The notes beneath the pieces were generated by a model that did no database searches, was not told the origin of the DNA, and was given only the letters and a program-made list of their open reading frames with translations. 6,465 bases of DNA from NCBI GenBank assembly GCA_025774615.1, contig JALGVQ010000162.1, positions 1-6,465 on the forward strand, read 5' to 3'. A program made the translations under genes and the position numbers. Source of the stretch: a bacterium. Its GTDB lineage: Bacteria; Blakebacterota; Blakebacteria; Blakebacterales; Blakebacteraceae. Each line of letters begins with the position of its first letter. The first letter of the stretch is position 1. Below, piece by piece: positions 616-677 of this stretch.

Positions 616-633
616 TGACTGTAGTGAGAAAAA

Positions 634-674
634 CCCTGCCCCGGCCTTCAGGCCGGGGCCTGACGTCCACAGGG
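634..674 (+). promoter_or_regulatory. Nested hairpin in the rpsF leader that pairs with the Shine-Dalgarno (possible r-protein autoregulatory element)
   Basis: The hppA-rpsF spacer holds a strong inner hairpin, CCCCGGCC (639-646) / loop TTCA / GGCCGGGG (651-658), extendable by G638-C659. An outer stem, CCCTG (634-638) with CAGGG (670-674), encloses it and leaves an 11-nt one-sided bulge (659-669). The 3' strand of the outer stem covers the first four bases of the rpsF Shine-Dalgarno AGGGAGG (671-677), so the folded form should hinder S6 translation. Leaders bound by the S6:S18 complex are known upstream of rpsF in many bacteria and are a stem-bulge-stem. I do not see the family's hallmark unpaired CCG in this bulge, so assignment to that family is tentative. 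The alternative is an hppA terminator: the + strand has no T-tract after the hairpin, but an A-run at 629-633 would give a T-tract for transcription on the - strand. Confidence 0.5.
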
Positions 675-677
675 AGG
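671..677 (+). promoter_or_regulatory. rpsF ribosome binding site
   Basis: AGGGAGG lies 10 nt before the ATG at 688 and fixes the S6 start. It is unusual because its first four bases can pair with CCCT at 634-637 in the leader structure, so accessibility may depend on folding. Confidence 0.8.

Follow-up and report, generated by a model that had tools for sequence, protein, structure and literature searches.

The widespread S6:S18 ribosomal leader is reportedly the subject of work by Matelska in 2013 and Fu in 2014. Its mechanism in Escherichia coli has been experimentally demonstrated (PMC4647458), and the essential feature is a conserved cytosine pair that matches C719/C720 of 16S rRNA and is contacted by K60 and R63 of S18 (Babina et al., PMC4647458). 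The Bacillus subtilis leader is cited in PMC4647458 as having bound S6:S18 in vitro, and an S6:S18 leader with the same operon and presumed ligand as the locus described here, yet unlike the rRNA site, has been described in Chlorobi (PMC7247131).

This locus lies in a 6,465-nt stretch of DNA (the window), contig 232 in a draft genome of 3.3 Mb (G000). By homology, positions 634 to 677 are very probably the S6:S18 (rpsF) ribosomal-protein leader of the rpsF-rpsR-DUF2232-rplI operon, through which S6:S18 would exert feedback. The likeness to the widespread leader is extensive: the element sits upstream of rpsF, its outer helix (H1) lies over the Shine-Dalgarno, its inner helix (H2) is closed by G-C pairs, and its bulge ends in a CC placed two bases before H1. 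The differences are that H1, just 4 bp long, is weaker than that of most members, that the CC is followed by A instead of G (A also being common in the family) and that H2 consists entirely of G-C pairs. Compared with the Chlorobi leader, by description only, the window has the CC of the widespread motif. It is thus an ordinary but previously unlisted example of a known, widespread leader family in a little-known bacterial lineage, and widens the range of a proven ribosomal feedback switch to include a part of the bacterial world that is poorly sampled.

Operon, position and register

The gene order is hppA - rpsF - rpsR - DUF2232 - rplI, with every gene on the + strand. The window opens with the 3' end of hppA, encoding a membrane H+-pyrophosphatase (1 to 615; Pfam PF03030, E 1.6e-87), whose open frame stops at 615. 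Immediately downstream of the leader comes rpsF (688 to 1350), whose S6 product carries a long acidic extension at its C-terminus (PF01250, E 2.2e-27, residues 3-91 of 220). The start of rpsR (S18; 1350 to 1568; PF01084, E 3e-26; RNA-contact residues IKRAR kept) overlaps the rpsF stop (TGATG), and stop and start codons likewise overlap at the junctions of rpsR with the DUF2232 membrane protein gene (1565 to 2536; PF09991, E 3.4e-25) and of the latter with rplI (L9; 2533 to 3138; PF03948 and PF01281), the last ribosomal gene of the operon. In three distant genomes (L115, L120 and L160), a reading that resembles the C-terminus of hppA (V-A-L-V-x-A-P) is found just before rpsF, and the adjacency of hppA and rpsF may recur outside the window's family.

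Two resources were used to place the leader. The first is a covariance model, R1, for which 30 rpsF leaders from other lineages served as seeds after rpsF upstream regions had been collected from many lineages, where they share the pattern CUCCUUGCUCC...GGGGC-bulge-CC[GA]N-AAGGAG; the window and its relative G003 were excluded from R1, and E. coli was also held out. The second is a comparison covering three further genomes from the family: G001 (same genus), G002 and G003 (other genus); all remaining candidate relatives have no more than the domain in common with the window.

Aligned to R1, H1 pairs CCCU (634 to 637, + strand), which corresponds to an H1 strand that covaries across lineages, with AGGG (671 to 674). 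In this register H1 overlaps, as E. coli H1 does, the rpsF Shine-Dalgarno AGGGAGG (671 to 677), which lies 10 nt upstream of the ATG at 688 and is identical in G003. Stacked directly on the 4-bp H1 is H2, with 9 bp that are all G-C, formed by GCCCCGGCC (638 to 646) and GGCCGGGGC (651 to 659), whose stem bases are the same in the same-genus and same-family relatives. The loop is UUCA (647 to 650), replaced by GCAA in G001 and CCAC in G003. H2 is followed by the 3' bulge CUGACGUCCAC (660 to 670), which contains the presumed S18-binding cytosines, its position, CC and purine at 665 being as in 52 aligned leaders. An earlier reading of these letters without database searches (the sequence-only reading) had correctly picked out CCCTG (634-638), CAGGG (670-674), a GC hairpin (639-646/651-658) and AGGGAGG, but its register, a 5-bp outer stem around an 8-bp hairpin, has to be shifted by one pair: G638 is predicted to pair with C659 (probability 0.98-0.99) rather than with C670 (at most 0.01), which gives the 4-bp H1, the 9-bp H2 and a bulge at 660-670.

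Family membership, covariation and the unpaired CC

When R1 was run on the whole 3.3-Mb genome, positions 632-676 of the window came out first with 31.0 bits (E 5.3e-4), the runner-up reaching 14.5 bits. The held-out E. coli leader, which is experimentally proven (PMC4647458), obtains 30.5 bits and that of G003 32 bits, while 38 of 80 further rpsF regions, some of which were R1 seeds, match at E 0.05. The R1 score alone is not absolute proof, because a 25.8-bit match in G001 falls within an open reading frame and was taken as chance; most of the certainty for the window is supplied by its position upstream of rpsF. A motif search for H1, H2 and a CC two or three bases ahead of the Shine-Dalgarno strand gave the window a score of 38, which none of 2000 dinucleotide shuffles of the window reached. 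Scores of at least 28 were found in 39% of 194 rpsF upstream regions (near-duplicates and the window's own copies included) as against 0.7% of shuffles. The central proposal of the sequence-only reading, feedback by S6:S18 at the ribosome binding site of rpsF, is supported by the first rank in the genome, the element in a relative and the CC. Among the three origins that it left open, a divergent version comes nearest, except that the leader is not unusually divergent, its R1 score being like that of the validated E. coli leader; the independent leader and the hppA terminator find no support, as set out below.

H1 and H2 covary strongly across lineages. In 52 leaders, 92% of pair cells hold standard pairs and 11 of the 13 pairs change on both sides. 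The covariation score is 0.581, where shuffles give 0.231 and slid versions no more than 0.252, in an alignment that was fitted to the model; it is 0.594 versus 0.270 in a MAFFT alignment (A1), whose members were chosen by a finder that requires pairing. A second seed alignment (A2) had a one-column slip at its 3' end and was left unused. The sequence-only reading had proposed to look in relatives for compensatory changes in both stems, and these are strong across the 52 leaders but absent from the helices between the window and G003; there is no covariation in the window's own family because the paired bases, identical in the two genomes, do not vary.

The same reading had doubted the assignment on the ground that the unpaired CCG of the family was not evident. 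It missed the CC because it looked for CCG: the conserved unpaired CC sits at 667-668, in two columns where 51/52 and 52/52 of the aligned leaders (alignment A3) have C. These cytosines are followed by A in 27 leaders, by G in 24 and by U in 1, and the base two before the CC is a purine in all 52. The window reads G-U-CC-A (CC-A at 667-669) and G003 G-U-CC-G. The essential part of the motif is CC plus a purine and not CCG, and a search for CCG drops about half of the family. By analogy with their E. coli counterpart (PMC4647458), the cytosines at 667-668 are presumed to correspond to those held to contact S18 in the E. coli rpsF mRNA and in 16S rRNA. The S18 of the window keeps residues matching E. 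coli K60, R61, R63 and Y23, K24 (KRAR, DYK), with KRAR identical to E. coli K60-R63.

Rfam gives a different picture, which has to do with the breadth of its model. Scans of the window and of positions 600-720 returned no leader family and no S6:S18-type match. RF02893 (RpsF_leader, gathering cut-off 37 bits), which shares gene and regulator with the window leader and gives the E. coli member 110 bits, leaves the window unmatched: it found nothing above cut-off in G000, G001 and G003, and so no match anywhere in the window's genome. A scan with the S6:S18 covariance model, which the sequence-only reading had proposed as a check, is thus negative with a model that is narrow. Only 1 of 14 control genomes contains a match above its cut-off, and it misses actinobacterial leaders such as that of L066. 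We infer that the single control is E. coli; in that case even the B. subtilis leader stays under the threshold, a sign of the model's narrowness. RF02893 covers only part of the published rpsF leader family, and this curated model misses members that are recovered by a model built across lineages.

Folding, relatives and the proposed feedback

According to the nearest-neighbour model, H1 of the window has a probability of about 0.01-0.04 in the absence of protein and lies 2.3-2.9 kcal/mol above the best fold, in which a small hairpin (UCC 666-668/GGA 673-675) takes the place of H1. In the same calculation the median of the other members is 0.64, with 17% of them below 0.1 and E. coli at 0.19. 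A leader fold that masks the ribosome binding site, as first put forward, is thus unsupported for the RNA alone. H1 being predicted to be weak without protein, masking is therefore expected to need bound S6:S18. Once free S6 and S18 exceed their uptake by 16S rRNA, the S6:S18 heterodimer would bind the CC bulge beside H2, which would mirror its binding of the 16S site with C719/C720. Bound S6:S18 would then close the weak H1 over the Shine-Dalgarno and block initiation at rpsF, and the overlapping start and stop codons would carry repression on to rpsR and rplI. It is very unlikely that in this lineage the lone RNA holds both the CC and the Shine-Dalgarno in the competing hairpin (UCC 666-668/GGA 673-675) in such a way that binding of S6:S18 would need a switch between mutually exclusive folds instead of strengthening a fold already present.

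The 4 bp of H1 and its low predicted probability could also be taken to mean that the leader was inherited and has decayed, H1 having become too weak to control translation in the window's lineage. The same-genus relative G001 would fit such a remnant. It keeps the hairpin with its GCAA loop, has ACCGT instead of CCCTG as the 5' strand of H1 and lacks the 3' half of the leader: 37 nt, which in the window comprise the bulge, the 3' strand of H1, the Shine-Dalgarno and the opening codons of S6, are missing at about 2990-3020 of L032 (JALGWK010000064.1). This gap reflects either an assembly error at the hairpin or a genuine loss. Against decay stands G003, of the sister genus, in which ACACCCTGCCCCGGCCCCACGGCCGGGGCCTCACGTCCGCAGGGAGG is found upstream of rpsF, again downstream of hppA; its S6 is 64% identical to that of the window, and the spacer between hppA and the leader is barely alignable. 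As many as 38 of 44 leader bases are identical between the two genomes, the differences being confined to the loop (4) and the bulge (2), so that the two helices and the Shine-Dalgarno are unchanged and the greater part of the bulge is kept despite the diverged spacer. A 4-bp H1 is also found in other members. A decayed or unregulated remnant is highly improbable. In G002 there was no leader sequence to compare, as no rpsF, hppA end or rpsR was found. Should the 37-nt loss in G001 be real, an in-frame GTG within its hairpin could act as a start codon.

Alternative readings, and the tail of S6

The hairpin might instead serve hppA as an intrinsic terminator, or terminate transcription in both directions, the outer pairing being a chance extension. 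Its 9-bp all-GC stem does start 22 nt past the hppA stop codon, and on the minus strand (window 628-659) it is followed by TTTTT, a good match to an intrinsic terminator. However, the + strand, which is that of hppA, has no T run after the stem (CTGACGTCC), the T run of the minus strand has no gene to serve with all neighbours on the + strand, no terminator was found in G003 on either strand, and termination leaves the conserved CC bulge and H1 unexplained, all of which makes this reading scarcely credible. Hardly any probability attaches either to convergence, in which this lineage would have evolved an independent S6:S18 leader of its own at the same position. The Chlorobi motif (PMC7247131) offers a precedent for this and the missing RF02893 match some encouragement, but the window aligns over its full length to the widespread motif: H1, H2, the bulge and the CC fall in register at matching spacing, and the score equals that of E. 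coli.

The preferred reading, a member of the widespread S6:S18 leader family upstream of rpsF, is accompanied by a peculiarity of the S6 protein itself. Positions 1018-1347 of the window encode its C-terminal extension, which has ~110 residues and is largely acidic and repeat-like (EPEAEPDV...), and a different acidic repeat (GNDDKA...) is found at the same position in the S6 of G001. In E. coli, extra glutamates are added to S6 post-translationally, whereas here the acidic tail of S6 is encoded by the gene.
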